Shown: positions 8,890 through 62,700 of the stretch, in pieces
Layout of the letters: the number at the start of each line of letters is the position of its first letter
Numbering within the stretch: position 1 is the stretch's first letter
Assembly (NCBI GenBank): GCA_012934845.2
Contig: WNNJ02003526.1
Coordinates: 310,001 to 374,000 of the forward strand
DNA from: Pomphorhynchus laevis
Lineage: Eukaryota; Acanthocephala; Palaeacanthocephala; Echinorhynchida; Pomphorhynchidae
Length of the DNA: 64,000 nt
Reading direction: 5' to 3'
Program-made: the position numbers and the translations under genes
Notes under the pieces: generated by a model
What the model saw: only the letters and a program-made list of their open reading frames with translations
What the model was told of the DNA's origin: nothing
Database searches by the model: none

Positions 8890-9389
8890 TTGAGGCAAAA
8901 CGTTTAATATTTATCGTGAAAAAGGAGCCATTGTGAAGTAAAGTAGACGTCGTATGAAGAGTGAAAACGACGTGGAAGAACGGACATCAGTTTGCAAAGA
9001 ACTCCAGTCGAGTGAAGCGGTGAAGATAAAAAACGGATGCCATAATTAGTTAAGTGCGTAGGGACGTAAAAATATATATTTGATTGCAGCGTCGAGGAGA
9101 CAGAACGTGAGTCATCAATATAATCAAGGTGTAGGTAGGATGGATAGTTACTATAAACGATAAATTGTAACGAAAAGCAAACAAGATTCGACAATATGGT
9201 TAATTGTGGATTAAGATTGAAAGGAAAAATGATTGGATATATTATTGAAGTGGCAAATACACAGAAAGACACTAACAGCAAAGTCAATGATAAGTTGGAG
9301 AGGTAAAATGGCATATTTGAAAAAGTTGGTAAAGAGGCTTAGGCAATAATCGATTCTCGGAAACAGGAGAAGCGAAATACTATGCGAGA
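8890..9389 (-). mobile_element. CR1-like element, second partial 3' end
   Basis: The minus strand encodes LFPRIDYCLSLFTNFFK and ILPLQLIIDFAVSV. These repeat, in diverged form, a segment already present in the adjoining copy as FSRLDYCLSLFSNSPKSTL and LLPLQRIINAAVRV. It also has the NYGIRFLSSPL C-terminal segment. It is therefore a separate, more decayed copy joined head-to-tail to the element at 9390-13,600. Confidence 0.7.
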
Positions 9390-12249
9390 TTAAAGAAGAG
9401 AGATAAGGACAGATAACGTGCGATATATGATAAGATAACGTCTGATATCGTACAATTGTCGAGAAAATGAAGGTTGAGAAGTAAAGGTATGAAAAGTTAC
9501 AAGGCGGAAAGCAACGATAAGACGACGAATTTGAACATGACAATAAATGGTAGGCCAATCAAGAGAAACAAGATAGTGGGATGTATGATCAAAACGACGA
9601 AGACGGAGGAGAACTCGGACGGCAGCGTTGATGATGCGTTGTAAAGGAAGAAGAGTGGATTTAGGTGAGTTGGAAAATAGACTAAGACAGTAATCAAGTC
9701 TTGAGAAAAGAAGAGAAGATATGAGAGTCATACAAGAAGGGAAATCGATCAATCTACGAACTTGACAGAGATTGCGGAGTATCAAGGTAGATGAGCGTAC
9801 TTTATCACTAACGAAAGGTTTAAGTGAAAGTCGGCTGTCGAAATGAAAGCCTAGGAAAACGAGATTATCAACGATAGTTAGAATTGTAGAATTTAATGAT
9901 ACGGAAGGAGGTTCTACGCCGAAGCTTCGAGGTAGGATCCACATAATTTTAGATTTATCCGGATTCAGAGAAAGGCGAAGGGAAGAACGATGATTGGAAA
10001 TTGAGACAAGACAGCTGGAAACAGAAACACTAAGATCATGAATACGATAAGCAGGTGCGTGAGCATAGATGAAAATGTCATCGGCATATTGCATAACATG
10101 GAAGTTAAATTTATGAGAAATCGAAGACAAGTCACCGAGAATAAGAGAGAAAAGCATAGGGCCTAATACGGAGCCTTGTGGAACACCGGTCGGGATAGAC
10201 GAAGGATGGGAGAGAGAAGATTTAGAATAGACGCGAAATGTACGGTTTGATAGCGAACACGATTCAGCATAATTCTCGCGCGTTCTATTTCCTGCTGCAT
10301 GCGGGCTCCACGATCACGAATCGGTGAATTTACTCGGCCCAGATATGAAGAAAACCATGATACAGTGGGTAAAGAGAAGCCATAATCATGACGAAGGCGA
10401 TGTAGAAGAATCGAGTGATCGACGATGTCAAAAGCAGACGATAGATCAAAAGAAACTATGACACTACATAATTTATGATCGCGCGAGATGAGTAAGTCAT
10501 TATAAACTTTAAGACAGGCAATTTCAGTAGAGTGATTAGAGCGAAAAGCGGCTTGGAAGGGAGGAAACATGTTAGAGGAAAATAGATATGTATTAACTTG
10601 CTTGAGAACGAGACGCTCAAGGAGTTTAGAGAGGGTTGGGAGAAGTAAGATTGGACGGTACGAAGTTGGTAGTGAGGAGTCGAGAGATTGCTTTTTGATG
10701 AGAGGACGAACAGTGGCGCATTTTCAGATTGGAAGGAAATGTACGGCTACGGATGGACGAGTTGAACAATGTGGTTAGGAAGGGTGATATAGAGGAGCAG
10801 ATATTTTTAAGCAAGTGAGTGGGAATTGGGTCAGAAGAAGAGGTTTTATTGGGTAATGACAGCAGAACCGAAGAAACTTCATCAGACGAAACGGGAAGAA
10901 GTTGGAATAGTTCTGGGAGGGAAGTGTTTAAAGAGAAGAATGGGTACAAGGGGGCTACGGGTAGTAGGGAAAGTAAATTAGATAGCTAAGTTTGTAGGTA
11001 AGAAGAAAATTCATCAGGATTTATATTACAAGAAGTAGATGATCGTGAAAGAATTGAGTTTAAGATTTTCCAATGAGATTTAGAGTTGGAAGATGACTCG
11101 AGTTGATTTCGCCAAAAGATAGTACGTTTAGTACGTATAAGAATAAGATGTGAACGGCGTAGAGAAAAGTAGGAATCACGGAGATTTGGAGTGAGTGAGT
11201 TGGGAGAACGTTTAAGAAAGCGATTATATACACGAAAAGAGTGACGGAGTCGACGCTTAGAAAGACTACAGTCAGAATCGAACAAGAGAGCATGGCGCAA
11301 GCGCTGAGAGCGTCGGAGTCGACTAGGCAGAAGTTTATTGATGATAGACATAAGTTCAGAATCAAACAGAATGCATAGATCATCGGGAGAGAGATAGTTA
11401 AGAGGAAGTGAAAAGAGTGAAGAATTGAGTAAGGCTGTGCAGAGAATAGGGATATCGAGAAGTTTCCAGGGTCGACTTGGTGTGGATATTGGTGGAGGCG
11501 GAGAAGGAGGATGGGGACGAGTAAGAGTAAGAGTGACAAGGAAATGATCGGACAAACCGGGATCAGTAATTGACAAGGAAGTATAGTCATTGAAGCAGAT
11601 AGGGACAGCAATGATGTCAAGAGCACCGCCGAGAATATGAGTTGGGATTGTTGAAAGTAATTTATAGTTAAAATCATTAAAAAGATTAGTTAAAGTGATA
11701 GAGTCAGAGTTAGCCGGGCGATCAAGACGAATGTTAAAGTCGTCGAGAACAAAAGAAGTAGTATAAGACAATGAACAGTGAGACATAAGATCTGCAAGGT
11801 CGTTAAAGAAGATACGTGAGGGGGCAACTGAACCTGGACGGTATACAATCACAAGTTCCAGAGGGAAAGGAGTTGATAATCTGCATATGAGTAATTCGAA
11901 CGAGGTGTAACGAATGTTAACGTTAATTTTACGTAAAGGACATTGGGTGACGAGCAATGGCAACCATACCGTCATGGTTAAAAGCAGTAGATGTATGAGA
12001 GGCAATTGGACGAGCTGATTCAACTAAAGAACAACCAGAGCGGCATAGACGACGAATAGCAAGATCGTCGGAGTCACAATGCCAGGATTCGGTAACGCAG
12101 AGAATGTCGATAGATAATTGATCGAAGATATCAAGGAGCATATCAGCTTTATGAAGAATAGAGCGAGTGTTGAATAGACTTAGACGAAAAGTATGCTTAG
12201 GAGCGAGATCGACTAGCGAAGAAGACAAGGGGGAGAGATGGGACGCCAT
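9390..12249 (-). pseudogene. CR1-like ORF2: endonuclease and reverse transcriptase (copy A)
   Basis: Reading the minus strand from 12,249: an endonuclease domain with LSLFNTRSI, ILCVTESWH, SFVLDDFNIRL (the catalytic GDFN has become DDFN), ILGGALDIIAV and LSDHFLVTLTLT; then a basic linker to about 10,990. The RT begins with LLPVSSDEV and DPIPTHLLKNICSS. It continues with the VSFDLSSAFDIVDHS motif, GVPQGSVLGP across a frame break, VMQYADDIFIYAHAP (YADD) and the thumb (KPFVSDKVRSSTLILRNLC). An 87-nt insertion at 10,254-10,340 and other frameshifts make it inactive. It would cut target DNA and prime reverse transcription. The clade call (CR1/L2 group) rests on domain order and motifs only. Confidence 0.85.
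10254..10340. other. 87-nt insertion inside the RT domain of copy A
   Basis: Copy B (near 15,115) has GGATAGATATGAGG where copy A reads TTTGATAG, then 87 foreign bases, then AGATATGAAG. The insert is more GC-rich than its surroundings, is flanked by a repeated AG, and is not seen elsewhere in the window. Confidence 0.8.
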
Positions 12250-13593
12250 CGAATTTTTGGCCTTGTGTGTACAACGTGAAAATTTCCATTGATTTGACGT
12301 ATAGATAAGGATGACAAGCCGTTTGTTTCACGTTGATGTTTCTCAATGCGAGCTAAATTGAGCTGGCCAATATCAGAAGGGGAACGGTCAGGAAAGATAC
12401 GACAAGTAGACGAAGTGGTAAGAAGTTTAAAACGTTGGGATAGTACCAAGGATGCATGTGAAATATGTCGTTAAACGATTTTTAGGAGTGGATGACTGAG
12501 ATGATTGGATTTAGTGGATTTGTTTAAACGGATCAAAGATACAGAAGCGATATTATTGAAGAGGGATGGATTATTATCAGGAAGAATGGTTGCTAGGATA
12601 GACCTGAAAGCAGATACATCATCATCGAGGCGGCATTGAGGAGAAGCAGATTCGGAAACCTTTAAATTAGATATGATAATGCATCCATCGCGCGAAGGAA
12701 AACGATTACGTAGTGGTGGACGGACAGACCTGGTAGTAGTAGAGGCAGAAGAGCAGATAAACGTGGGAATGACAGGGGTGCTAAGTGAAGATTTAAGATA
12801 GTTTGGAGAATGTGTGACAGGAGTGGAGTGTTGAATCGGTTGATCGGAGATGTTACTGGAGATGATTTTGACGGAAGGATATAAATTATTGATAGGTGAT
12901 ACGGTTGGAGGATGTGTGACAGAAGTGGATTGTTGAATAGGTTGAACGGAGATGTTACTGGAGATAATTTTGACAGAAGGATGTAAATTATTGAGAAGTG
13001 TTACGGTAGAGGTAGAGTAAGGAGTACGTGAAGAGAAGAAAGAAGTATGAGATGTATTTAGATGTGGGAATGAATAGGAAAAATGAGGTACGAGATGAAG
13101 GCCTTTACTGTTTGCATTGTTAGGAAGATGAAGATTAAGGGAAGTTTTATCCGTAGTTAAAGGATGAGTGTGTGTGAGAGAGAAGTTTCAAGAACGGGTT
13201 TTATAGATGACGAAGGAGTTAGTAAGCGAACGGATGACGACGATAGATTGGAAGATATGTTGTCGTTTGTTAATGTTCCATGTATAACAGCGGTCTGAGT
13301 TGACTGGAGATATCATCAAGTTTATTTATTGACCACAAATATGTTTTGTTAGCGTTCAGAACGTCTCTACCGTTTGAGTGGTTATACTTCATTAGCTTAC
13401 CTACGAGGGCAGCACAACAGAAGCCGCAGAGGAAATTCCGATTTGAAACGTTGTCCTCGTCAGTGAAAGGAATGGCAACGTGAGTCCAAACATTGCAGTT
13501 CTTGTTGTCGCATCCAATTTGCTTTTCGATGTAAGATTCCTTGACGGACTTGAGTTGCTGGCCGACATTTTTAGTTAGCTTTCTCTTTGCCAT
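12250..13593 (-). pseudogene. CR1-like ORF1 with PHD-like zinc finger (copy A)
   Basis: Starts with an ATG at 13,591-13,593 giving MAKRKLTKNVGQQLK. A Cys/His cluster follows (CDNKNCNVWTHVAI, then FLCGFCCAALVGK), spaced like a PHD-type zinc finger, which CR1-group ORF1 proteins often carry. The first 107 codons are intact. Downstream the frame is broken, but the sequence keeps a serine/threonine/proline-rich bias down to the endonuclease start. It probably encoded the RNA-binding chaperone of the element. The same finger is recognisable at 23,200-23,300 in copy D. Confidence 0.75.
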
Positions 13594-13647
13594 GATAAAA
13601 TGTTAATTAGTTAGTTATACTCAAGAATGTTTAAACTCCTTTAGTCT

Positions 13648-13813
13648 GCAAGTCGTTAGTTGTAAGTAGTTCGCGTTAGTTGTAAGTAGTCGTTAGTTGT
13701 AAGTAGCGAGCGGATGTCGTCGATGGTTGTCGATGGTTGTCGATAATTGTCAAGCGGATGGTTGTCGTTAGTTGTCGTCGAAGGTTGTCGTTGGTTGTCG
13801 TCGAAGATTGTAG
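13648..13813. repeat. GTTGTCG-type short tandem repeats in the putative 5' UTR of copy A
   Basis: Two adjoining sets: TTAGTTGTAAGTAGT repeats (about 13,648-13,710), then imperfect GTTGTCGATG / GTTGTCG repeats (about 13,720-13,813). They lie just upstream, in minus-strand terms, of the ORF1 ATG at 13,593, where LINEs may carry promoter-like tandem repeats. Confidence 0.75.
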
Positions 13814-14055
13814 TTTGATTGTTTTACAATCTTGGTGGACAAGATTTTCCGCGAGCGAAGCGAGCAGAATGTAAGATGTTTGTTATCAAGAAAATTTTTA
13901 CTTAACGTAATTAATAGTTTTAAAGCTCGTGCAACGTATGCATATCGAGATATATCAGTGTCTTATCGTAAATCATTATTCTTGTATTGGAACAAGCTTT
14001 GTTGCACAACGTAGTACCCGCCCCAATTAGTTGTTTTCGTATTTCGTTCCTTAAA

Positions 14056-16247
14056 AAATTATTTTAACGTGGCAAATGCGTGCCAGCGCACGCTTAAATA
14101 ACCACAACAAAACAAAAATGTAAATCATGTATCGAAAAGGTGTGAACGGAGGAGGTGTTTGAATGTGATCAAGGAGGGAGCGCGGCGGACTTCGAGAGGG
14201 AGTTGGTTCCAGGCGAGTGAGGCGGCAACGAGAAAGGATCGGAGACCGTAGTTGTTGGAGTAATTAGGAACGTGGAGTAAGAGGGTATGACGGGAACGCA
14301 GCGATATCGAGGTGCGGCGAGTGTCGTCTAAGAAAGGAAGGTTGATGACCGTGGGGAGCCGACAGCGATGAGACGAAAAGTAACGAGAAGTAGGCGGAGT
14401 TTGATGCGGATGTGGATGGTGGGCCAGGAAAGTTGGGAAAATATGTGGATGTGTGGTCGAAGCGACGGAGACGAAAGAGCACTCGAACGGCGGTGTTGAT
14501 TATTCGTTGTAGGGGTAGGATGATGGATTTTGGAGAATTGGCGAAAAGGCTAAGGCAGTAATCGATTTTAGGGAAAAGAAGCGATGAAAGAAGAGATATA
14601 CAAGAACGGGAGTCGATAAGGGGGTGGATACGGAGGATGTCACGAAGAATTAAGTTAGACGAGCGGACCTTGTCACAAACGAAGGGTTTAAGGGAAAGTT
14701 GATCATCGAAATGGAAGCCAAAGAAAGTGAGATTGTGTACGATGGGGATGATCGATTAGGCAAAAGATACAGTGTGAAGAGATATGTTTGGTATACAGGA
14801 GGATCTACATTATTTTAGACTTGTCGGGGTTTAGAACGAGATATAGTTTAGAAAGACGTTCGTAGATTGAAGAAAGACAGTTGGAGGCAGAAATGCCGAT
14901 ATCGTGTATGCGATGTGCGGGTGCATGTGCATAGATGAGGATGTCATCGGCATATTGCATGACGTTAAAGGAGTAAGGTTTGATAAACGGAGAGAGATCG
15001 CCAAGCAGAAGAGAGAAAAGCAGCGGGACCTAGGACTGAACCTTGTGGGACCCCGCAAAATATAGGGATGGGAGGGGAGGATAATGAATTAGAACAGACG
15101 CGAAAGGAACGGTCGGATAGATATGAGGCAAACCATGCTACGGAGGAAGAAGAAAAGCCGTAATCATAACGAAGGCGAGAAAGGAGGGCGGAGTGGTCGG
15201 CAATGTCGAAGGCGGAGGAGAGGTCAAGGGAGATGATAACACTATATTGAGCCTTGTCTCGATAAATGAGTAAGGCGTTGTAAACTTTCGTGCAGGCGAC
15301 TTCTGTGGAGTGATTAGATGGGAAAGCGGGTTGAAAAAGAGGGTACATATTGGATGAAGAGAGATAAGCGTTGATCTGTATTAAGATGAGGCGTTCTAAG
15401 AGTTTTGAAAGGGTAGGGAGTAGTGAAATGGGGCCATAGCTAGAACGAAGGGTGGGTTCGAGCGATTGTTTCTTTAGTAGGAGACGAACGATTGCGGATT
15501 TCCAGTGTGAAGGGAAGATACGACTGCGGATGGACGAGTTGAACAAGGTTGTGAGAAAAAGGGATATCGATGAGCATATGGATATTAGTATGTGGGTAGG
15601 TAGGGGATCGGCAGGTGAGGTTTTGCTAGGCAAAGACATGAGAACATATGAGACTTCGGAAGGTGAGACAGGGAGAAGATGAAAGAGTTTCGGAAGGATG
15701 ATGCTAGGCTGGGCAGATTTATATAGGATGAATACCGGGATTTGAGAGAGCAACGTGGATACATTGATATGGAGAAATGACGAATAATCATGGGCATTGA
15801 TGTTGCACGGCGAAGAGGAACGAGCAAGGATTGAGTTAAAAGTATGCTAGAGAGTCTTAAAGTTGAATGAAGTGATGATTTTATGCTGCCAGAAGGAATT
15901 ACATTAGGTACGTAATAGGTGGATATGAGACCGGCGATGAGCAAGATAGGTATCACGGAAAGACGGAGTGATCTAGCGGAAATCACGTCTGAGAGAGCGG
16001 TGATAGACTCGAAAAGCATGACGGTGTCGATGCTTTGAGTGTAATCATTGGATGTCAAACCATGGGTCACTGTGCAAGCGATGGTGTGGGTTAGGCTTGA
16101 AGGGCAAGAGAAGATCGAGAATGGATGTGAGTTCAGAGTCGAAATGAAAGGCGAGACGTGAGGAGATGAATATGTTATTATGGGATAGGATAGAGGCGAT
16201 TTGAGTAACGCAGAGCGAAGTGAGAGGTCATACAAGCGTACATACAT
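14056..16247 (-). mobile_element. CR1-like non-LTR element, 5'-truncated copy B
   Basis: Minus-strand RT from 15,753 to about 14,260: FHLLPVSPSEV, ISLDLSSAFDIADHS, FCGVPQGSVLGP, then after a frameshift VMQYADDILIYAHAPAHRIH. The C-terminal domain includes LRRFDHTSTYFPNFPGPP. Remains of the endonuclease-to-RT linker extend to about 16,247. The 3' end at 14,056-14,110 carries the family tail TTTGTTGTGGTTATTTAAGC, the hairpin GCGTGCGCTGGCACGC and CATTTGCCACGT. The longest open piece is 262 codons, but the RT is split by a frameshift near 15,050. Confidence 0.85.
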
Positions 16248-16487
16248 AAAGTAAATGACTCAATATGTAAGCATTTGCCACAGCCCTGATAATAACTTCA
16301 TCCAAATACGAAAACATTCTACCTATCAAACATACTATATGTGTAGGTTTACTACTTAACCGTGGATAAATGACTATCAAACAAGACACTCAAATCCTAA
16401 ATATGCGAAACAGTTTTTATCTGATATTTTCCAATGCGATCTGGCTCATGAAGACAAAATATTTTTCTACATTAGGACATAGCATTT

Positions 16488-26605: not shown

Positions 26606-28077
26606 TGTTTAAATAAATTACAGCATTAGAATAAATGTTAGTTGTCAAGCATTTGAGTATACATCCTGAATTTATATATAATTAGGATGATCAAACATTC
26701 GAGAATTAACTTTTTTTACATCCTAACGTTCTTGTTCGTACTAACGTGTTTTGCATTGCTTTCCATAAAACATGATGTAACAGATTATGATTGCTTGAAC
26801 TTTTCCTTCCTTATCTTAAGACTCAAACTTTCCTTGTCCTAAGACTCAAACTCAAACTCTTAGTATAATGATATCCTTTATAATACTGCAATTTATCGCA
26901 ACAAAATCTAAATACGTTAAACTTGATTAAATTCTCCCAGAAATTCAACCAAATTTGTATAATCAAAATATGTACAGTTAGAGAGAGTGTTACTCATCTA
27001 AATCCCGATTCTGTGGATTGATTTTAAACATTTTAACTTAAAAACCCGCTGAAATAAAGTATCAAAGCACGTTGAAATAAAGTAAATACATTAAAATAAA
27101 ATACAATTTAATATAATATTAAATAATTAATACATTTTAATTAAATATACGTTAATTTAAAATAATTATAATTGCAAATATTTGAATTGTATTAAATATT
27201 TTAATATAATTCAAATAAAATATTTTTCTGGCGAACTATTCATAATTATTTTAGTAAATTCAAAATCACATTTTACGGATACTCATAGTGACTACCGTTT
27301 CCATTCTATTCCGTTTATCAGTTAAGTGTATTTCTTATTGTTGATTGTAAAGAGAAGCTCATCAACGTAAATAAGGTATCAAAACTAAGATTCACATGCC
27401 TGGATTAATCTACAATTTTGTCGCTCAGCATTGAAATATCATATTGTTCGTTGTTTGCTGATAACTACTCATCATTTGTAATAATTATTTAAAATAACAT
27501 TTTCTAACCGAAATTTTTGTCATTTATTTTGAAAGATACTAAATAAACGTGAAACAAATATTCTAGAGTAACACTTAGCGCTCTTTGGATACGAAACGTA
27601 CTGTTTAGTTCCCTTTGGAACCATACGAAACGTACTGTTAAGCTTATGCTCAATCAAACTTTTTCCTAGTGAGCAAACGTTTTTAGTAATATAAGAACTA
27701 GTCGACTCCCGGTGGCCATTTTATTACGATCGCCTAATTCGTGGAGGTTACTCGACCAGTGATATACTTTTTCCGACGCATAATCAATATAATGGTACAT
27801 TTGTTAAGTAGTTTAATAATTATTTAATTATTAATCATTAATCATTAATTAATTATTACATTTAATCTTTAAATGCTGCAATTGTCGTTCATCTGAAAGA
27901 TAGCTTTATTGCAAATAGCTTCATTACATTAAAAATAGCTTCATTACATTAATTATAAAATTATATTTATATTTGATCTTTTCTAGGTTTTTCTGTATTG
28001 TTTTTCGCATAATTAATCAATTCTTGTTTTTTATAAAGAACAAGTTGACCGGAATTGGAAAATAATTGCCTACATAT
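26606..28077. other. Intergenic AT-rich sequence upstream of the long gene
   Basis: No coding sequence is supported. A tandem echo ACGAAACGTACTGTT occurs at about 27,591 and 27,637. The stretch would hold the promoter and 5' UTR of the gene at 28,078, but I see no convincing core promoter motif. Confidence 0.45.
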
Positions 28078-31000
28078 ATGGATTCTTTTGAATATTATTA
28101 CTTCTGTTTAATCCATGCAGAATCAAGCGTTGTCTACGAATGCATTCAAAGTCTAATTGATTTATCTTTCGGCAAATCGATTACCATATCAGATTGCTTA
28201 AATAATGATGTACTGGTCAGTAATTTTCAACGTTATATCAGTAAATTTAAAACGGATGAAGCATTCAAATCATTTATATTTAGAGAACGACTATACTACT
28301 TAAAGATCACATGTTACTCTGTTGCTAAGTTGCTAGCAAGCACAAGTTGCCCATCCTATATAGTAAACTTCATAACGAAGTTCAGCAACCAAAACAATTC
28401 ACTCATCATCAACACACTAACTGGATTTGTCGTCAGCTCAGATTTTTCAATACTAGAAAAATGTGAATGTCTACAATGTTTGGTGATTTTACTGACTGGC
28501 AATAGAGACGATTTAGCTTCATCGAAAAATTTCGAGTTTAGTTCATCTGATTATTTCTTATTAAATCGGTATTTCAAACAAATAAGACGACTGTTGAGTG
28601 AAAATGTTGAACATTTTTGTTGTAAAGAACTACATGTATCGTTGCTGGATTTACTCCTTTCCTTATTGAGAATGAATAATACCCATATTATAACACCCAT
28701 AACCAGCTCATCTTACGGAGGTATCTTTTGTCGTTTTGTAAATCAGCAATTTATCGAAAATACTTCGCTGTCTGACTTTATCAAAGATATAGGGAAAAGA
28801 GCTGTACATATCGCAGATCTTTGTGTTTATCAAGTGTCATTCATAGCCTGCCAGCTTGCTCTTACGCTCGTGAGTGACTATAGTAATTTCGATGATGCTG
28901 ATTTTCAAGATTGCTATGTTGAAATCATTGAACTTGTAAATCGTCTTATAGTTTACCATCCCGTTGAACTGGGAACACTTATAGTTGAGATGAAGCCTGA
29001 CAAGTCAAATGTAGCCCGGGCAATTGCAATCGCTGCTAGTAGCAATAATTGGCATTTACTAAACGTCATTTTACATTTACCTGCTAATCCTCTGTCAAAT
29101 GCCTTACTCAATACGGCAACTACTAGATTGACAAACACATATCCTTTATTAAACTATAGTACTATGAATGGTTTACATGTAATGCAATATGATTGGTCAT
29201 TAGGCTATTACCTTGGTCTATATAAATGGAAACTTTTATTTGAACATTTAACTAAATCGGGTCTTGAAACAGGCGATTGTATACAGCTTATAGCTCATGC
29301 AAGTTCTTCCGAAAGCGGGTGGCGTTTAGAACTGTTTAGTCCAATCGTTCTGAATTACTATAGCAATATAATGTGCATATTAATACGTTCATTGTGCCAA
29401 AATATGCATCGTTCATCTATTGATTTGCATTGGTTAGCTTATAGTCTACAGAAATTGATATTAAAATGTCACGTATGCTTACCAGTTGCAGTGATCGAGT
29501 GCTCATTAAAAATTATAAGCGACGTTCCTGGAGACCGACAAATTTCACATATAATTGCATCCGTGATTGTTGAAGATAAGCTAATTTTTGATTATTACTT
29601 AAAGGCGATTTCACTTAATCTTTTATTAAATGTTATTTCAGTTGAAGAGTCCTTATCGTCTAGTGACGAAAATTTACTGAAATCGGCTGAACAGTGTGCA
29701 ATCAACGTTATTCATCAAACTAGGGATGCAAACGTATTACTCCCTACTATGAAATGGTTGCTTGCAAAACACGATTGTATAGGTCCCGATGTTTATATGA
29801 CGCTTGTGAATTTTTTGGACTACTATGGCACTGAAGATGGTTGCGACCATAATCAGGATAATCTTAATATTTATGACTATTATGGCAATCGTCAAAATGG
29901 TTCTGACAAAGACATCAACCTTGTGATCTGTATTGTAAGTATACTTGCAAATTGCAATGAAAATTACCAGCAGAAATCCGAAAATCAACGGCCCACTGAA
30001 AATTCGACAATTTTAAATAAAGTCTTGAAAATATTTCGTAAATATATAAGCAATTCAGTGAATACTAAAGGTGACGACCTGGCTAATGATTTGATTATGT
30101 TATTTAGCAGTTTGAGACAGTATATTTATAAGCACCAGGATTCCGAATCAATTACAATTCTAGGACAGCTTGCTGCTCTTGCTGGTACTTCCTATCCAAG
30201 GCTATTATCTGAATGCCTGGATTTTCGAATGTATCTATTGCTGAACAAAGATTTTCTGAAAAAAGATGAAACTCGCGATAAAGGTGTCGGAAACGAACAA
30301 ATATTAGATGTAATGATTCCAGAATACTTAGACTGTATAGAGTCTGCTCTTATTGCTATCCGCTTCAAGTGCACAAACGGCTTAAGATTTCAATTTCCTT
30401 CTAAATTATATTCAACTACTCCACTAGCATTCCTAATTATTGATTATCAATCAGAAATCCTCCTTGACAATCTACTTTCAACCTGTTCTGATGATCACTA
30501 CAAGTGCATTCTACCTAAGCTAATAGACGGATGCCTATCTTTATCATTCACTGACTCCAGCATACTTTTGAAATTCAGATACATTTTACCCTTAATTCAA
30601 CAACTTCTATTAACATTAGACGATAAGCAATATTTGAATTATAAGTGTATTCTTGCAAATGTTTTGCTACAGTCAGCGGGAACGTTTGTCCTTCCAATTA
30701 TAAACGTGTTTTTGTCAACTATACTCCCTAAGCTTAGGACATTCAGCGAATGCTTGTGCCCTCTAATGTGTACGATTTTAAAATTACTACCTTTCAATAG
30801 ACTTTCTCGCGAGCATCTCCAATTATTGAAAATGCTTGTCTGTAAATTCAACGACGAGTTACTGGCCGAGCAGCAGGACAAGTTTGAAAACCTTGATATA
30901 CTTATTGAACCACTAATTATGCTAAGTCCTACACTGTGTAGAATATGTAGCGATGCGGCCTTGTGTTTAGATGAATATCCATTGCTGTTGAAGTTTCGCG

Positions 31001-31320
31001 ATGACGAACAATCTGAATTTAATGTGATAAGTTTTGAAAGATGTACAGGTTTATGTCTTATTGCGTTTCGAAAATATGGTCATCTTAACAACAGTTTACT
31101 CGAGAAAATGCTTAGTTTTATCATATGCCACGGTATTATGTGTTTACGTCGGCAACCTAAAGTATACGGTTTTAAGCATTTCATCCGTGCAGAGCTGGAC
31201 CGCGTTTTTACCGTTCTTTCAACTTACATTAAACGCAAACATTTAGATGAGAATGTTGATTCTGTTAAATATTTTGAATCATTATCAATATTGTACAAAT
31301 TTTCATTCCAACGCGCATGA
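28078..31320 (+). CDS. Large intronless protein, predicted all-helical, function not recognised
   Basis: The frame extends a little upstream at a TTG codon, but the first ATG is at 28,078 (MDSFEYYYFCLIHAESS), giving 1080 residues. Composition is leucine-, isoleucine- and serine-rich, with repeated amphipathic helical stretches throughout (for example SLLDLLLSLLRMNN; LAYSLQKLILKCHVCLPVAV; LIQQLLLTLDDK). This suggests an ARM/HEAT-like solenoid. Residues about 590-640 form an acidic Asn/Asp/Tyr-rich insertion (NIYDYYGNRQNGSDK) that is probably an exposed loop. There is no signal peptide, membrane span or catalytic motif that I can see. A single 3.2-kb exon is unusual beside the short-exon genes at 33-38 and 57-64 kb, so it may be a retrogene. 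I cannot name it. A likely poly(A) signal follows at 31,456. Confidence 0.85.
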   Translation: MDSFEYYYFCLIHAESSVVYECIQSLIDLSFGKSITISDCLNNDVLVSNFQRYISKFKTDEAFKSFIFRERLYYLKITCYSVAKLLASTSCPSYIVNFITKFSNQNNSLIINTLTGFVVSSDFSILEKCECLQCLVILLTGNRDDLASSKNFEFSSSDYFLLNRYFKQIRRLLSENVEHFCCKELHVSLLDLLLSLLRMNNTHIITPITSSSYGGIFCRFVNQQFIENTSLSDFIKDIGKRAVHIADLCVYQVSFIACQLALTLVSDYSNFDDADFQDCYVEIIELVNRLIVYHPVELGTLIVEMKPDKSNVARAIAIAASSNNWHLLNVILHLPANPLSNALLNTATTRLTNTYPLLNYSTMNGLHVMQYDWSLGYYLGLYKWKLLFEHLTKSGLETGDCIQLIAHASSSESGWRLELFSPIVLNYYSNIMCILIRSLCQNMHRSSIDLHWLAYSLQKLILKCHVCLPVAVIECSLKIISDVPGDRQISHIIASVIVEDKLIFDYYLKAISLNLLLNVISVEESLSSSDENLLKSAEQCAINVIHQTRDANVLLPTMKWLLAKHDCIGPDVYMTLVNFLDYYGTEDGCDHNQDNLNIYDYYGNRQNGSDKDINLVICIVSILANCNENYQQKSENQRPTENSTILNKVLKIFRKYISNSVNTKGDDLANDLIMLFSSLRQYIYKHQDSESITILGQLAALAGTSYPRLLSECLDFRMYLLLNKDFLKKDETRDKGVGNEQILDVMIPEYLDCIESALIAIRFKCTNGLRFQFPSKLYSTTPLAFLIIDYQSEILLDNLLSTCSDDHYKCILPKLIDGCLSLSFTDSSILLKFRYILPLIQQLLLTLDDKQYLNYKCILANVLLQSAGTFVLPIINVFLSTILPKLRTFSECLCPLMCTILKLLPFNRLSREHLQLLKMLVCKFNDELLAEQQDKFENLDILIEPLIMLSPTLCRICSDAALCLDEYPLLLKFRDDEQSEFNVISFERCTGLCLIAFRKYGHLNNSLLEKMLSFIICHGIMCLRRQPKVYGFKHFIRAELDRVFTVLSTYIKRKHLDENVDSVKYFESLSILYKFSFQRA

Positions 31321-32359: not shown

Positions 32360-33241
32360 AATGCTTATAAGTCAAATGTTGAAATCATTGACTTGTAAAT
32401 CGTCTTATAGTTTACCACCCGTTGAACTGGGAACACTTATAGTTGAGATGAAGCCTGACAAGTCAAATGTAGCCCGGGCAATTGCAATCGCTGCTAGTAG
32501 CAATTTTTTATTTGAAAATTTAACTAAATCGGGTCTTGAAACAGGCGATTGTATACAGCTTATAGCTCATGCAAGTTCTTCCGAAAGCGGGTGGCGTTTA
32601 GAACTGTTTAGTCCAATCGTTCTGAATTACTATAGCAATATAATGTGCATATTAATACGTTCATTGTGCCAAAATATGCATCGTTAATCTATTGATTTGC
32701 ATTGGTTAGCTTATAGTCTACAGAAATTGATATTAAAATGTCACGTATGCTTACCAGTTGCGGTGATCGAGTGCTCATTAAAAATTATAAGCGACGTTCC
32801 TGGAGACCGACAAATTTCACATATAATTGCATCCGTGATTGTTGAAGATAAGCTAATTTTTGATTATTACTTAAAGGCGATTTCACTTAATCTTTTATTA
32901 AATGTTATTTCAGTTGAAGAGTCCTTATCGTCTAGTGACGAAAATTTACTGAAATCGGCTGAACAGTGTGCAATCATCGTTATTCATCAAACTAGGGATG
33001 CAAACGTATTACTCCCTACTATGAAATGGTTGCTTGCAAAACACGATTGTATAGGTCCCGATGTTTATATGACGCTTGTGAATTTTTTGGACTACTATAG
33101 CACTGAAGATGGTTGAGATGAAACCTGACAAGTCAAATGTAGCCCGGGTCAATTGTAATCGCTGCTAGTAGCAACAATTGGCATTTACTAAACGTCATTT
33201 TACATTTACCTGCTAATCCTCTGTCAAATGCCTTACTCAAA
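32360..33241 (+). pseudogene. Rearranged partial copy of the 1080-residue gene
   Basis: 32,370-33,112 matches parent bases 28,919-29,840 almost exactly, but lacks about 190 bp (parent 29,045-29,234). It has a one-base deletion at TACCACCCG (parent TACCATCCCG) and a TCA-to-TAA stop (TCGTTAATC for TCGTTCATC, at about 32,685). At 33,110 the copy jumps back: 33,112-33,241 matches parent 28,980-29,113 and contains part of the segment deleted in the first piece. It is therefore a recent duplication with internal rearrangement, not a processed retrocopy. It can make no full product. Confidence 0.95.
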
Positions 33242-38127: not shown

Positions 38128-38861
38128 GCAAACCCTTTTATATCTATTGTTCATTGTTATCTTGCTTGGCTAAATTTATTGAATCAATGATATAAAGTTT
38201 TATTCACTTTGGCAAAAGTTCGCCAAAGTTTGTAAAATATAAGTTGTTGAGCACCAACAATTTATTAAAATTCATGTTTTGAAAATATCTAAGGAATGAG
38301 AAGTTTGTTATCACTTATATAACAAAAACCAAAATCGGGTAATCCAATGTAATTTAACCTATACTCAAATCAATTATCAATCTTGCAATCTTATAGATTT
38401 CGTATTTTATTCAAATTCATAATACGTTACCTATTAAAATTCGAAAAGCGTTATTAAAATTACTAAATACGTTATGTTGAAATCTAAAGAAAGCATTAAA
38501 TTTCGAATGGTCGAAGTCTAGGACTCAGTCTAAATGAGTTGTTGAATAGACAAAAAAATTATCGAAATTTAAAATACAAAATATAGAAATACAATACAAA
38601 AATATAGTTACATAGATCTGAGAACGGTTATCCCGGAAGAAAAACAAATATTATACAGTAATTATAAAAATCAATAATAAATACTGAGACTTATTAGGAT
38701 TAAATAATATGTCCATGTCGATAATAACGGATTGCTTGTTGTGAGTGAATGTTTATAGAATTTGTTACTCATTTGGGTGTATTAGATTTAATTAAATGTT
38801 TCGTTTCTTAAATATGTATTTACCTTTACTCATAAAAGTAAATACTTAAAATACAAATCAA

Positions 38862-39175
38862 ATCAGCTAACTGAGTCTACGTATTAAATATAATTATAAT
38901 ATAAACAAAACATAATAATGCTAAATCAAAATTTAATAATTAAATAATAAAATTAATAATTGTTTTTAGATTTTCTATAATTTAAATCAAGTTAAAATAA
39001 AAAAATGAAATTTAAAATAAAAGTCATTTTTATGAATTGACTAATAAATAACAGACGATGCATAGGAATAAGGATTATATATCATCAGAAGAAACAGCTA
39101 TGCTATAATGTTTCGGCCCTTAATTTATCGACTCAACATAGTAGCGGGGCCAAATACGTGTTAAGGACGTATTTC
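38862..39175 (-). repeat. PLE-flank repeat, copy 3
   Basis: Minus-strand copy with terminus ACGTAGACTCAGTTAGCTGA, the TTATTTATTAG and CCTTATTC blocks, CTTCTGATGATA and GGCCCCGCTACTATGTTGAG. It sits just beyond the 3' end of the PLE remnant at 39,240-40,400 and in the same orientation. Confidence 0.65.
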
Positions 39176-39239
39176 CTCTGATGAAATTTGACTATATAGT
39201 ATCTTATTCTAATCCTAAGTATATTATTTATTATTCATC

Positions 39240-40400
39240 CATAAAAATTTTCCGCTAATGATTTTAAATATATTTTTAATATTATTGTTTTGATTTATAT
39301 ATTTTACTATTTTCTGTTAGATGATATTTCTATAATAACCTAGTTTAAAATATGCATCTATTAAATTATTTAAATGATTTTGAAGAAAGCCAATATCATT
39401 ACATATTGTTGCAATTCTTAAAATTTCATTATTTAATGTATTATATTTTATATTATGTGGTATGCATGAATGCACTTGTAAAAATATGTTTCTTGAAAAT
39501 TTAAATATGCAATCTTTACGATATAAATCAAAAGTAGTTGTAGTTGATGTTAATTTAATGCTCATATCAAGATATATACTTTCTTTATCATTAATATATG
39601 TTTGATCAAGAAAAAAAGCTACCTGAATAAATTTGTTCGCTTATTGAATAAAAATTGCCTGAGTTAAATACACATATATCCTCAATGTATCGAAACATAT
39701 ATTTCATATCTTTATATAATTTAGATTTATTTTATAAACAGTTACAAACAAATTCATATTATATAAAGCTTAAAAATAAGTCAGCAATAATTGGGCTGAT
39801 ATTACCTCCCATTGGAACACATTTTATTTGTCTAAATATAGATGTCCCTACCCTTAAAAAAATTGATTTTTTTAAATATTTCAGGATTCTAATAATTCAA
39901 TTTTATCCATATATTTATATTAATTTGATGGTTTAACTTTTGTTAGATAGGCGTTATAATTATTATAACATATATATGTATATCTTTTTCCGAATATAAG
40001 ATAAATTAATTTCACTAACGCTTCTTTAATATCTACTAAATCTAGATTTATATAAAGCGTACTAAAATCGTACGTATTTATATTCTGAAAATTATTTCTT
40101 TTGTTTGTTCTAAAAATTATTTTGTAGAATTAATACTGAAATAGTATTTTATACCAGCATTAATTTCGATTATCCTACAATATTTTTTAAAGTGTGCTTT
40201 AATTACTTTAAGTATTTTATTCATATAAACCGAAAGAGGTTTTAATGTACTGCTTAAAAGCACTACATATGAACCTTTTTTGAAAAAATTTTTCTGCTAC
40301 ATTTAAAAGATCTAAAATTAAAATCATTAGTACTTAAGTATTTTTCCAATCTAATTGTGTACATGTAAATTTTGTTAGTCATAATTTTTAACGTTGATTT
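39240..40400 (-). pseudogene. Penelope-like element RT, decayed but nearly complete core
   Basis: Minus strand, in order and with stops and shifts: KRFICSAFKQYIKTSFGLYE (pre-core), YDFSTLYINLDLVDIKEALV (LYTN-like motif), FRQIKCVPMGGNISPIIADL (GVPMGGNSSP motif, with G changed to C), FRYIEDICVFNS (catalytic YIDD has become YIED), and NIFLQVHSCIPHNIKYN leading into the thumb. The layout is that of PLE reverse transcriptases, which copy RNA without LTRs and are related to telomerase. No GIY-YIG domain follows; the frame ends near 39,240. Confidence 0.7.
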
Positions 40401-41295
40401 TTCGATGTCGCCACCTAGTTTAGTTGACTCCGACTAAACTTACAACGGGACATCAGCAGCATTCGGCAGGGGCTGCCCTGCTTAAGGCGATAAATATTTT
40501 TATAAGTAAATATTTACTTAAAGTCAATATAAGCATCAATACTTACATTTTAGCTTAAACATAATATTAAATTCGTTTCTCAAAAAGATTAAATTTTTAG
40601 CAATTCTCGTTTACCGAGAATTCAACGGACAACAGAATCATTACAAAATCAAACTTTGGATCCTTTAGATATAAATTGTAGAAAACTGACAAAAATTGGA
40701 TTTTGTAAACCACATACGACTTCGTTAGACAATATTGATTCCGATCGTAATAACAATATCTCAGGGTAAGTTTAATATGATTAGAAACAGCTAATAAGCT
40801 GTTTTCATCATAATTAAAATAATCTATGGCATCGATGTATGCAATACCTTTACATGCTATGACTGGTGATTATTCATTGCTTCCTATATATAATTAGTTA
40901 TAATAATATATTGTTAATTAATAATTATTTGCTATAAAACAATGTTTGTGTCTTTATTCCACTCGTTGCTGCGTACATTGCAACTAAATATGTTTATAAT
41001 ACCCAACATTTTTAATTGTAGAATACTCTCCGAAGAGTATATAAACGCCTCTATAATGTTTTAAGTATTAAGCGATTTTGAAAAAAAATTCGAAACCAAT
41101 TACGGAATTATTTTGTCTTAAATAAATGAAATAAATAGATAAATAAAGAAAATAATATAAATTTAGGTGTTCTGCTAGAATTAGAGTGGAAATAAAGTTA
41201 AAATAGTCAGTTCTGAATAGCTTAATCAATAATCTCACAGTTTTAAATTTATTAATCATATTTTAAAATAATTTTTTATAAATATTTCTAATAGT
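40401..41295. other. Unassigned sequence
   Basis: No supported gene. A small GC-rich hairpin, GCAGGG / CCCTGC, lies at about 40,472-40,489 in otherwise AT-rich DNA. Confidence 0.4.
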
Positions 41296-52485: not shown

Positions 52486-52514
52486 TATTTAAATGCAAGC
52501 GCAAAAGATAAAAA

Positions 52515-53215
52515 AGTATACATATACCTTACATATATAGTATATATACAAAATATTATAATAACTATAACAGCTATCTAACAAAAATTAAACCATCAAG
52601 TAAATATAAATATATGAATAAAATTGAATTAATAGAATCCTTAAATATTTTGATAAATCAAAATTATTTAAAGGTAGAGACATCTATATTTAGACAAGTA
52701 AAAGGTGTTCCAATGGGTGGTAATAGTAGCCCGTTTTTAGCTGACTTGTTTTTAAGCTTTATAGAATATGAATTTGTTCATAACTGTGTAAAAACTAAAT
52801 CTAAACAATATAAATATATGAAATATATGTTTCGATACATTGATGATATATGTGTATTTAATTCTAATGATTTTTATTCAATTAGTGAGCACATTTATCC
52901 AGAAAGCCTTATTCTTAACAAAACCAATATTAATGATAAAGAAGGTGTATATCTAGATATGAACATTAAATTAACATTAACTAAAACTACTATTAATTTA
53001 TATCGTAAAGATGACATATTTAAATTTACAAGAAACATATTTTTGCATGAGCATTCATGCATACCATATAATATAAAATATAATATATTAAATAATGAAA
53101 TTTTAAGAATTTCAACAATTTGTAATGATATTGGCTTTCTTCAAAATCATTTAAATAATTTAATAGATACATATTTTAAACTAGGTTAATATAAAAATAA
53201 CAAAACAGAAAATAG
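52515..53215 (+). pseudogene. Penelope-like RT, best-preserved copy
   Basis: Open from ATG at 52,614 for 191 codons: KIELIESLNILINQNY, FRQVKGVPMGGNSSPFLADL (conserved PLE core motif), YMFRYIDDICVFNSNDFY with catalytic YIDD intact, EGVYLDMNIKLTL, then NIFLHEHSCIPYNIKYN and the thumb. Decayed upstream RT sequence extends to about 52,515. The N-terminal fingers and any endonuclease are absent, so it is not autonomous as it stands. Unlike the other copies, its catalytic aspartates are present. Confidence 0.8.
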
Positions 53216-59759: not shown

Positions 59760-62700
59760 TCAAACGTAAAGATTAGCATTGTGCCGACGAAAATATTTTT
59801 TTATCCTAAATAAATGATTTCTAAAAATTCTACGCACTTTAGATGTATCGTCATCATCATGGACACTGGACGCATCTGTTGATTCAATAGGGATGACTTC
59901 CTTACCGCTATCTTTAGTATCTGGACTGGATAGTGTGATATCTTTCTTGGTTATCTGTGGTTGTTGCTTAAGACATTCAATTTGAACTTGCATCTTTGAC
60001 TGAAATTTAGACGTATCTGATTTAATAGTTTGCGCTGCATTACTATAGTCATGAGCATTCACATTTGTAATAGCATAGTCGAACACGTCCTTTTTTCTCA
60101 GATACAAAAGCTCTTTATCAAGAATCTTAATGTAACATTAATTTTTTTTACTAAAATAGATTTAAAAATAAAAATTATTTAATGATAAATTAAATAAATA
60201 CACATTTAACAAATTACTTGTGTAAACTACTTGTCGACTTTTCATAATTCGCTTATTAATTTTGTACTTATATTTTTCAATAATTTTAATTTCTATTTAA
60301 TTATGAAAACGAAAATATGCCTGGATAATTTTAAAATTTTACTACGCGATTGCAATTTTAATAGCAACCAAAGTTATCGTTGTATTTTGTTGACTCTCGA
60401 GCTTGTAATAACGCTTTGCGCTTTAACATTAAAATAATGATAGTGATGATATTTATTATTTGCTATTTACTATTTTTCGGATCTTTTGTAATTTTTAAAT
60501 CGATTACACAGTATAATTCCTATATATAAAACCATTTATTGGCATTTTTTAAATTTTACTATTTATTGTGCATTTTAGATAAATAAAGTTTTTAGAAAAA
60601 ATATAGTAAATGCAATTTACATCTAGTTTCCAAGTCAATAAGTAATTTAATCCGATATTTCTGTTCTAATTGGATGATCAATTAAAACAAAACTATTAAT
60701 TTCAATATTGCTGACGAAAATTGTCAAGTAATAAAAAATAATAAAGAAAATCTTCAACAACTATATTTATAAATAAATAATTATATTACAATACTTTATA
60801 TTTTACTAAACGTTTTTAGATTTTTAATAGGTATAGTAACATCTGGCACTGATGAGTCTCATTGTGACGACAAAACGGCATTCGTCATTCTTTCGCGTCT
60901 GGCTTACATGTTTTACAAGAAATTCACGCGGAATGGTCTCACTCTCCTTAAATAAAAGTTAGCCGATATTAAAGAGACCTGCGCTGGCATTTGCCAGTGC
61001 TTTTGCTAATGATCCTTTTTGGTGAAGCTGTAGTACTGATTTAGTACTCGATGATGTTACTAGAAAATTATCTTGTACATCATTCACATTGATTCAGTCA
61101 TTGATTACCGTTTGCCAGTCCTCCTCCGTATCCAGTAGTGGAAGGGATCTGGCACTGATGAGTCATTGTGATGAAGAAACGGCATTCTTCATTCTTTCTC
61201 ATCTGGCTTACATGTTTTACAAGAAATTCACGCGGAATGGTCTCACTCTCCTTAAATTCATGATAAAAGTTAGCCGATATTAAAGAGACCTGCGCTGACA
61301 TTTGCCAGTGTTTTTGCTAATAATCCTTTTTTTGGTAAAGCTGTAGTACTGATTTAGTACTCGATGATGTTACTAGAAAATTATCTTGTACATCATTCAC
61401 ATTGATTCATTCATTGATTACCGTATGCCAGTCCTCCTCTGTATCCAGTAGTGGAAGGGATCTGGCACTGATGAGTCATTGTGATGACGAAACGGCATTC
61501 GTCATTCTTTCGCGTCTGGCTTACATGTTTTACATGTATAGTAACTGTCATACGACTATTTTTTAATAGAACCTTCCTTTATTTTTTGCAAATTTTAAAT
61601 TACGTAAAAAAATATATCCAAACAATTTTGCGTTTTTGTTAATGGGGACACATCATTCTTTACTAGAAATAATTGCTTTCAAATGTTATCCGTTATTAAG
61701 TGCTTTTGAAATTGTAATAAATCGTTTAATTGGAAATATAATTTTATGAATCAAATTTGTATAATAAACAACACATTTTTAATGTTTTAAAAATATAAAG
61801 TTTTTATATTGAAAACGGTTACATTTGTCAAGCTAGTTTTTAAAATTTAAATAAATGAGCTATACGATATACAAATTTTATATAAATGCGCAAAGCCTTA
61901 AATAAAAAATTTGATTAAATTGGTTTTATGCTTTTGTAGAATTTAATATTACATAATAGTTTATTACATCTTAAATATTCGTTATATTCATTTTAGAAAA
62001 TAACTTGACTACCATATAATTAAAGAATACGTTAACTATAATATATTGGCGTAAACCACATAAGAGCAATCGCTGATTCGACCAGCATATTTATACGGTT
62101 CATGGCTAGATTATAAACCTGATATATACAAATAGATCAAGTTTATTTTAACTTATCCGGTACTCTAAACTAAAAACAGGATGATAATATGTCCCCAAAG
62201 TGTCCAAGTTAGTGTAAACCTTGCATTGTAAAAGTTTTGTAATTTTGATAACCAACGCTTAATAAATGCATTTTAAATTAATATAAATTCTAAATATAAT
62301 TTTTATGCATATTTGAATGTTTATATGCCTTTAAAAATAAAATATTTATTAAGTTAACTAACTATAATGAAACTTTGTTAGCATATATAGTTGCACTTAC
62401 AGAACTAAGAGATTGGCTACTCTTATTTGATGACCTAGCAAAATCTTCTCTAAGTTGCACAACTGACACAGTGCCAGAACCTTTTCCGACAGCAATCATT
62501 TGACCATTCTTTACGTTTATGCTCATACAATAAATGTTTCTTGTTCCGACCTAAAAATAAATTTCATCGTTAAAATTGTAATCAATGTTGTTAATTCTAT
62601 TTTTTGAATGTTATGTTTCTTGTTCCGACCTAAAAATAAATTTCATCGTTAAAATTGTAATCAATGTTGTTAATTCTATTTTTTGAATGTTATGCAGAAA

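Follow-up and report, generated by a model that had tools for sequence, protein, structure and literature searches.

The 64,000-nt window analyzed here (C2383:310001–374000) contains, at 60841–61535 on the forward strand, a tandem insert of about 2.25 units that runs from unit position 35 to a site at unit position ~109, here called A, and this insert is a decayed member of a large repeat family. The family probably represents a non-autonomous retrozyme with ~304-nt units and a type III hammerhead ribozyme, spread by a Penelope-like reverse transcriptase/endonuclease. The units lie in tandem, the outer ends of the inserts fall at A or at a second site, B, with a tendency to have one of the two on each side, the 5' ends of the copied strands pile up at the predicted ribozyme cut, and duplications of the target flank the inserts at about half of the places. 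An earlier note on this DNA had described the insert as having the architecture of a retrozyme, which holds with regard to the tandem hammerhead units, the many copies and the duplications; that label alone misses the Penelope-type anatomy of the insertions.

The genome (249 Mb in 3,242 contigs) was searched with three probes, giving 118 matches with the 695-nt insert of the window (from 39 scored of 1,667 first-look candidates), 41 matches with an internal 105-nt probe (40 scored of 1,716) and 47 matches with a ribozyme probe (40 scored of 1,927), these candidate numbers being first-look counts that were unverified as copies. The earlier note had proposed to look for other genomic copies, and many were found. 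From the matches 57 places were taken, namely the window, 36 of the 37 other arrays found with the insert probe (the exception being C685, located at a contig end) and 20 of the 22 new places found with the 105-nt probe. The natural medoid unit of the family was 304 nt long with a GC content of 0.42. The inserts were mostly short (median 485 bp for the 17 places of the second sample) and spread over many contigs, and the mapped segments in the fetched places consisted of units only, too short for an open reading frame (ORF) encoding a reverse transcriptase and a GIY-YIG endonuclease. Unit mapping revealed no long terminal repeat (LTR) in the mapped inserts, no search aimed at a primer-binding site (PBS) or polypurine tract (PPT) having been made. 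When viral contigs were searched for one 26-nt pattern of the ribozyme, none contained it exactly.

A second repeat family with inverted head-to-head ends was discovered adjoining a Penelope-like fragment (L066 3072–3252; L070–L073). Its search gave 88 matches from 40 scored of 373 first-look candidates, and since most of these matches were below 92% identity this second family is probably older than the first. In the four pieces fetched the units were ~320–375 nt long, with the ribozyme order as in the first family and a core that was mostly CUGAAGA, and the two families were 77% alike across unit positions 73–141.

The ends of the inserts were counted at 50 places, 33 from a first sample (695-nt probe) and 17 from a second (105-nt probe), after dropping the likely duplicates L021, L026, L034 and L051, the contig-end place L055, the old composite L061 and the very long array L029, as well as the second of the arrays in L019 and all pieces less than 84% identical. 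The probe of the first sample favours inserts of at least ~2.2 units and that sample may therefore be skewed, while the probe of the second sample has no contact with the predicted ribozyme cut. With regard to outer ends (n = 76), 34 were at A, 31 at B and 11 elsewhere, placing 65 of 76 at two sites ~34 nt apart. An inverted 5' piece, making the insert two-ended, was present at 26 of the 50 places, and 17 of these 26 inserts were A/B or B/A (11/15 in the first sample and 6/11 in the second), with none being A/A or B/B; 17 such pairings were reached by only 19 of 100,000 shuffles of the right ends. The ends at A and B, the tendency to have one on each side and the head-to-head pieces match the published 'tail' pattern of Penelope elements, in which one end carries a tail of 30–40 nt and an inverted piece stands head to head. 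For the Anolis Penelope element, reverse transcription has been reported to start at a pair of neighbouring internal sites on the RNA, which delimit a 30–40 bp 'tail', the purified protein cutting and extending both strands and preferring AT-rich targets (PMC11167929, Frangieh et al. 2024; this and all other papers are cited here from portions of their text). Rotifer Penelope inserts likewise have a head-to-head inverted pseudo-LTR (pLTR), with an optional 31-bp tail on one inverted pLTR (PMC3846280, 2013).

The inverted 5' pieces could instead have arisen by self-priming of one complementary DNA (cDNA) rather than by priming on both target strands, as has been proposed for head-to-head palindromic joints in rotifers (PMC3846280). 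In six of the 26 joints no more than 10 nt separated the two 5' positions, as that explanation would have it, but in the other 20 they were farther apart, and a self-primed inverted piece would not be expected to have its outer end at A or B and, as in 17 of 26 cases, at the opposite site. We consider this explanation improbable. 

A LINE (long interspersed nuclear element) could also be thought to copy the RNA, using ordinary target-primed reverse transcription with twin priming. 5' truncation, inverted 5' pieces and duplications of 12–15 bp are all known with LINEs, and LINE-like-looking RVT_1 frames lie within the window. Twin priming places the inverted piece internal to the element, whereas its outer end was here mostly A or B, opposite to the other end in the 17 paired inserts, and the 3' junctions lacked a constant poly(A) or simple-repeat tail, with AT-rich flanks that varied among the inserts. 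Copying by a LINE thus appears quite improbable, even with the 15-bp duplications of Nematostella repeats having been likened to those of LINEs (PMC4918200).

At the other extremity of the copied strands, 24 of 78 cDNA 5' ends were within 3 nt of unit position 1, the predicted cut, compared with 1.8 expected. As L036 alone supplied four of these ends, the count was also made by place, giving 18 of 50 places with the same expectation of 1.8. The figures for the first and second samples were 17 of 50 (1.2 expected) and 7 of 28 (0.6 expected) for ends, and 12 of 33 (1.1 expected) and 6 of 17 (0.6 expected) for places. The densest 7-nt windows were those centred on positions 1–4, holding 24–26 ends, with the best window off the peak (position 71) holding 6; this weak cluster, at positions 59–74, coincides with a hairpin of the predicted fold. 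Among the matches to the ribozyme probe, several head-to-head neighbours also joined a few bases from position 1, e.g. at C1172:119756/119757. The location of the 5' ends on the ribozyme cut suggests that hammerhead-cut RNA was the template for roughly a third of the cDNAs. In L049 (815–972) the head-to-head copies form long inverted repeats that match the Rfam microRNA precursor model MIR4387 with 68 bits (cut-off 84), and repeats of that type are a possible origin of false microRNA calls.

Target-site duplications, defined as direct repeats of at least 11 bp with at most one mismatch, were found at 24 of the 50 places; in 40 rounds with mismatched flanks the mean was 1.62 and the maximum 6, so that the flanking duplications which the earlier note had suggested counting were indeed present. 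Two-ended inserts had them in 19 of 26 cases and one-ended inserts in 5 of 24. When repeats of at least 9 bp were considered (n = 26), 20 were 12 or 13 bp long, with a pooled A+T content of 89%. In L019 an insert with its left end at B and its right end at position 68 was nested in a Penelope-like copy and flanked on both sides by a 13-bp stretch, which is single in the uninterrupted unit of the corresponding element L069 (949–961) and has a third occurrence in L019 ~440 bp downstream. An ordinary immobile satellite, with arrays grown by unequal crossing-over and a hammerhead-like sequence kept by descent, would fit the array in L029 (C516:25600–35200), which has 22 full units of mixed types and is much longer than the usual insert. 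Short inserts on many contigs, with fixed ends and duplications, together with the one nested in a mobile element of known uninterrupted form, argue against it so strongly that we give this explanation hardly any weight.

The ribozyme was analyzed in a set of 170 copies (leaving out L021, L026, L034, L051 and L061), 123 of which were distinct and 32 identical to the commonest copy. GUC was the cleavage triplet in 155 of the 170 and the core was intact in 136; an intact core (CUGANGA, GAAA) together with an NUH triplet was found in 131. The minimum-energy fold of the commonest copy was a three-helix hammerhead of –37.2 kcal/mol (z –2.76; two of 200 shuffles were as good), having stem I closed by a long capped hairpin, a 5-bp stem II with a loop of 4 nt, and an open stem III with 6 bp, a mismatch and two further pairs. 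The ribozyme of the family is accordingly, as judged from sequence and predicted folding, a type III hammerhead with a predicted cut after GUC. In the second family, where five of eight copies could be aligned for comparison of pairs (three being missed by the search pattern), pairs 20–55 and 32–40 stayed paired through one-sided change in four of five copies each. The unit as a predicted circle was strongly self-paired (–98.2 kcal/mol, z –5.7 versus 60 shuffles), the corresponding z values being –2.3 for the unit of the window and –1.1 for a unit of the second family.

Regarding the arrays, 55 of 117 units had their nearest neighbour within their own array, versus 7.0 expected, with similarity at lag 2 within arrays being suggestive only. 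Rolling-circle copying of one monomer as the sole source of arrays was rejected as a general rule, with the units of an array diverging by several percent and having mixed indels. Since the divergence within arrays is about that between arrays, a single monomeric circle cannot be the sole template, and templates that are dimers or longer, or switching between templates, must also be involved in mixed arrays.

A scheme for the spread of the family can be proposed from these features, for which we infer a Penelope enzyme, a circular or multimeric template and self-cleavage itself. Tandem copies would be transcribed, whereupon hammerhead cutting after GUC would leave RNA whose 5' ends are at unit position 1. 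The A/B region would then be bound by a Penelope-type enzyme, probably in dimeric form, which would cleave the two strands of an AT-rich target ~12–13 nt apart, and from each cut strand reverse transcription would be primed, at A for one strand and at B for the other. Both cDNAs would run back round the circle or along the multimer to the cut 5' end or to a block and be joined head to head, and fill-in of the stagger would yield the duplication. What this adds to the known Penelope pattern is 5' ends on the ribozyme cut and a strict A/B pairing where both ends could be typed; for the pairing, a dimer holding one RNA is perhaps the simplest explanation. That the genome in this way records ribozyme cleavage making the template for a Penelope-type enzyme, with the two strands primed at different sites (A and B) by a dimer holding one hammerhead-processed circular or dimeric RNA, and all this in a type III retrozyme lineage, is a proposal on which our confidence falls just short of evenly divided. 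With a family of such high copy number, questions of insertion become answerable at near single-nucleotide resolution, and the roles of start site and cleavage separable.

A possible source of the mobilizing enzyme is the abundant Penelope-like element L069 (C2046:1–7600), with very many nearly identical copies (23,376 first-look candidates), a 908-codon open frame in 8 of 150 scored copies and, in one place, a tandem arrangement at 3,520 bp. In the protein of L069 itself Pfam recognized no domain, and in L068 it found a weak match to reverse transcriptase; among the relatives of L069, P0002 had an N-terminal GIY-YIG and a reverse transcriptase match, an order that we take to be that of the Naiad/Chlamys group, and P0005 had an N-terminal GIY-YIG. 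The 75 GIY-YIG matches were set aside as a route to other Penelope families, the best of them, in C1660, looking bacterial by eye; the piece concerned (L074, C1660:7500–11500) is from a bacterial-looking contig with UvrC-like and glutathione-synthesis-like frames, also by eye, which may be a contaminant or an associate. Fragments of L069 directly adjoin retrozyme arrays at L009 4173–4755 and L018 3360–4941, given the abundance of the element maybe by chance.

It could also be that the units are tandem or solo pLTRs of a Penelope family, with the ribozyme a bystander and no independent retrozyme cycle. Their ends have the features of Penelope pLTRs and tails, and in published elements a hammerhead lies close to where the ORF starts and the pLTR takes in its first codons (PMC11167929, PMC3846280), to which a 33-codon frame seen by eye from an ATG in the hammerhead core across A and B could have been compared. 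As a remnant of a Penelope N-terminus this frame was rejected, not being conserved: the second family has AAG in place of the ATG, with a shift in spacing. The mapped segments were, furthermore, units only, the search for ORFs in the flanks having been made with six relatives of the L069 protein as tblastn queries, and the hammerheads of Penelope elements are described as minimal type I in the portions of the literature cited, whereas these are full type III. We thus regard the pLTR explanation as unlikely, and prefer that of a retrozyme moved by a Penelope-like enzyme.

Several findings weigh against that preferred interpretation. As to its ends, 9 of the 26 two-ended inserts had one end outside A and B, and a duplication of at least 11 bp was lacking in 19 of the 24 one-ended inserts and in 7 of the 26 with two ends. 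As to its ribozyme, Rfam gave no match at gathering score in the window, so that the check with hammerhead models proposed in the earlier note turned out negative at that level. At a loose threshold RF00008 (Hammerhead_3) was found at 61436–61498 with 21.1 bits and E 0.12, below its cut-off of 48.5 and with the 5' strand placed differently from the layout proposed here, and among six further loci RF00008 appeared in L049 alone, with 23.5 bits for the same cut-off; the long stem I is probably the reason for this poor recognition. Covariation within the family revealed two-sided compensatory change in none of 29 pairs, and 163 of 195 broken pair cells were at G-C pairs. The rate of change was 0.029 in the core, 0.029 at other unpaired positions and 0.045 at paired ones, a pattern as expected of neutral decay after insertion. 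When two copies of the second family were folded, one gave a hammerhead and the other a three-way fold with stem I shifted, and in all five aligned copies of that family the outer stem III pairs 10–88 and 8–90 were broken, this outer part of the stem being able, by eye, to pair again around a bulged A. In the predicted circle the ribozyme is concealed within another hairpin, the core in unit 2 of L010 being sequestered in a hairpin of the GATGACGAA/TTCGTCATT type, where the weak cluster of 5' ends at positions 59–74 also falls. Units within one array differed by a mean of 6.4%, versus 5.7% between arrays, and with differing indels. Concerning the enzyme, L069 was rejected as direct parent (best match to the unit DNA with E 0.7, and E 0.19 for L068), its most frequent 3' ends are the end of its own unit and not an internal tail, and our searches found no Penelope family whose 5' region matched. 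Finally, for the Anolis element the start sites were alike on both strands, the hammerhead was dispensable in vitro and reads ending at the cut were absent, according to the portions cited of PMC11167929.

Features of the window insert, as located in relation to the family, are listed in Table 1.

Table 1. Positions of the retrozyme insert features and of the Penelope-like fragment in the window
Feature	Position	Strand	Remarks
Penelope-like reverse transcriptase fragment (abundant L069 element)	52512–53189	+	Outside the insert
Left target-site duplication, GTATAGTAAC	60831–60840		Adjoins left end of insert
Hammerhead copy 1, 3' part only	60841–60880	+	Stem I lacks its 5' strand; CTGATGA core at 60849
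Site A, first unit (unit position ~110)	60911–60918	+	One of two preferred insertion 3' ends
Site B, first unit (unit position ~144)	60944–60952	+	The other preferred insertion 3' end
Hammerhead copy 2	61108–61182	+	Predicted cleavage after 61112 (GUU); core 61155–61161; GAAA 61176–61179
Complete 313-nt unit	61113–61425	+	From predicted cut to predicted cut
Site A, second unit	61215–61222	+	
Site B, second unit	61248–61256	+	
Hammerhead copy 3	61421–61495	+	Predicted cleavage 61425/61426 (GUA); core 61468–61474; GAAA 61489–61492
Right target-site duplication, GTATAGTAAC	61536–61545		Adjoins right end of insert

The 10-bp repeat GTATAGTAAC that the earlier note had seen bracketing the array directly adjoins both ends of the insert, and the unit of ~310 bp with cleavage sites 313 nt apart given in that note agrees with the triplets of the two complete copies, ending at 61112 and 61425. 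The CTGATGA core occurs at 60849, 61155 and 61468, and the longer motif CTGATGARTC three times in the window, versus 0.28 expected and at least three times in none of 100 shuffles. With the insert beginning only at unit position 35, copy 1 is missing the 5' strand of stem I, and its GAAA has become AAAA (G12 now A), while copy 2 has an A opposite G10.1, giving a mismatch at 10.1–11.1. The invariant core bases and GUA site claimed for copy 3 are present. Of the three helices claimed for that copy, the type III order is that of the family, but the minimum-energy fold of copy 3, like that of copy 2, was not a hammerhead. Similarly, its stem III is open as had been described, but the 4 bp of that stem and the GUA triplet are, when set against the 6 bp of the commonest copy and the predominant GUC of the family, decay of that copy and not a family trait. 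A genome search for an empty allele of the insert returned only its two flanks themselves.

Elsewhere in the window, a further stretch of the abundant Penelope-like element lies at 38853–40489, and reverse transcriptase fragments of the RVT_1 type, in overlapping frames and LINE-like by our own reading, at 8904–16259. An uninterrupted 1,084-codon frame at 28066–31320 had no relatives in Pfam or PDB, with 8,000 scored database candidates returning only the frame itself, and a part of it is repeated 1.4 kb downstream (32688–33116).

Among the closest known counterparts are the extended type III hammerheads of toad and termite RNAs resembling hepatitis delta virus (HDV), in which the long helix I is also made of a short stem, an internal loop and a capping hairpin (PMC7936874). 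Those have a first helix I stem of 5 bp, versus 6 bp here, and a GCCR/YGGC loop pairing that was not seen by eye in the family, and in the portions cited they are found in HDV-like RNAs or as isolated motifs in termite and dipteran genomes, whereas that of the present family sits in a mobile repeat. Plant LTR retrozymes share with the family the type III hammerhead and its blocking in the predicted circle, but have LTRs, a PBS and a PPT, units of 600–1000 bp and 4-bp duplications (PMC4918200, PMC7229834, PMC7761336), compared with 304 nt and 12–13 bp here.

Penelope elements resemble the family in their two internal start sites 30–40 nt apart, the tail on one end, the head-to-head inverted end, the use of both target strands, the AT-rich targets and the short duplications (PMC11167929, PMC3846280), those of rotifers being 8–10 bp in some copies and missing in others, with the authors favouring self-priming (PMC3846280). 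They carry an enzyme ORF and a minimal type I hammerhead, as far as described, whereas the family has no enzyme ORF and a type III hammerhead. The role of the ribozyme in Penelope transposition is unclear from PMC11167929, with no reads at the hammerhead site given in the portions cited for the Anolis element, whereas a large share of the cDNA ends lies on the cut in the present family.

Metazoan non-LTR retrozymes are similar to the family in having tandem hammerhead units of 150–450 bp with GC below 50%, many dispersed copies, duplications longer than 4 bp and a predicted self-paired RNA (PMC7229834, Cervera and de la Pena 2020). Concealment of the ribozyme in the circle, predicted here, is ascribed in the cited portions of that paper to plant retrozymes and viroids and not to most metazoan retrozymes. 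Animal retrozymes are described with type I and plant retrozymes with type III hammerheads (PMC7229834, PMC4918200), and the earlier note was thus right in calling type III unusual for animal retrozymes; here the type III order, with a long capped stem I, is seen in two families. In the open-access literature, outside of which most subscription journals and preprints lie, no title or abstract start names a type III animal retrozyme, and a type III hammerhead in an animal-type retrozyme is new relative to the type I descriptions as cited. Should the host prove not to be an animal, the type III hammerhead would be less surprising, with the Penelope signature unaffected; a search for the arthropod cuticle family PF00379 gave no match, nor did its control give one anywhere. 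The mobilizing enzyme of animal retrozymes was left open between a LINE and a Penelope-like element, the latter being a strong candidate (PMC7229834), and the ends of the present inserts, carrying the two-site signature of Penelope, point to the Penelope-like element. If the host is an animal, type III hammerheads would, among retrozymes, not be confined to the LTR retrozymes of plants.

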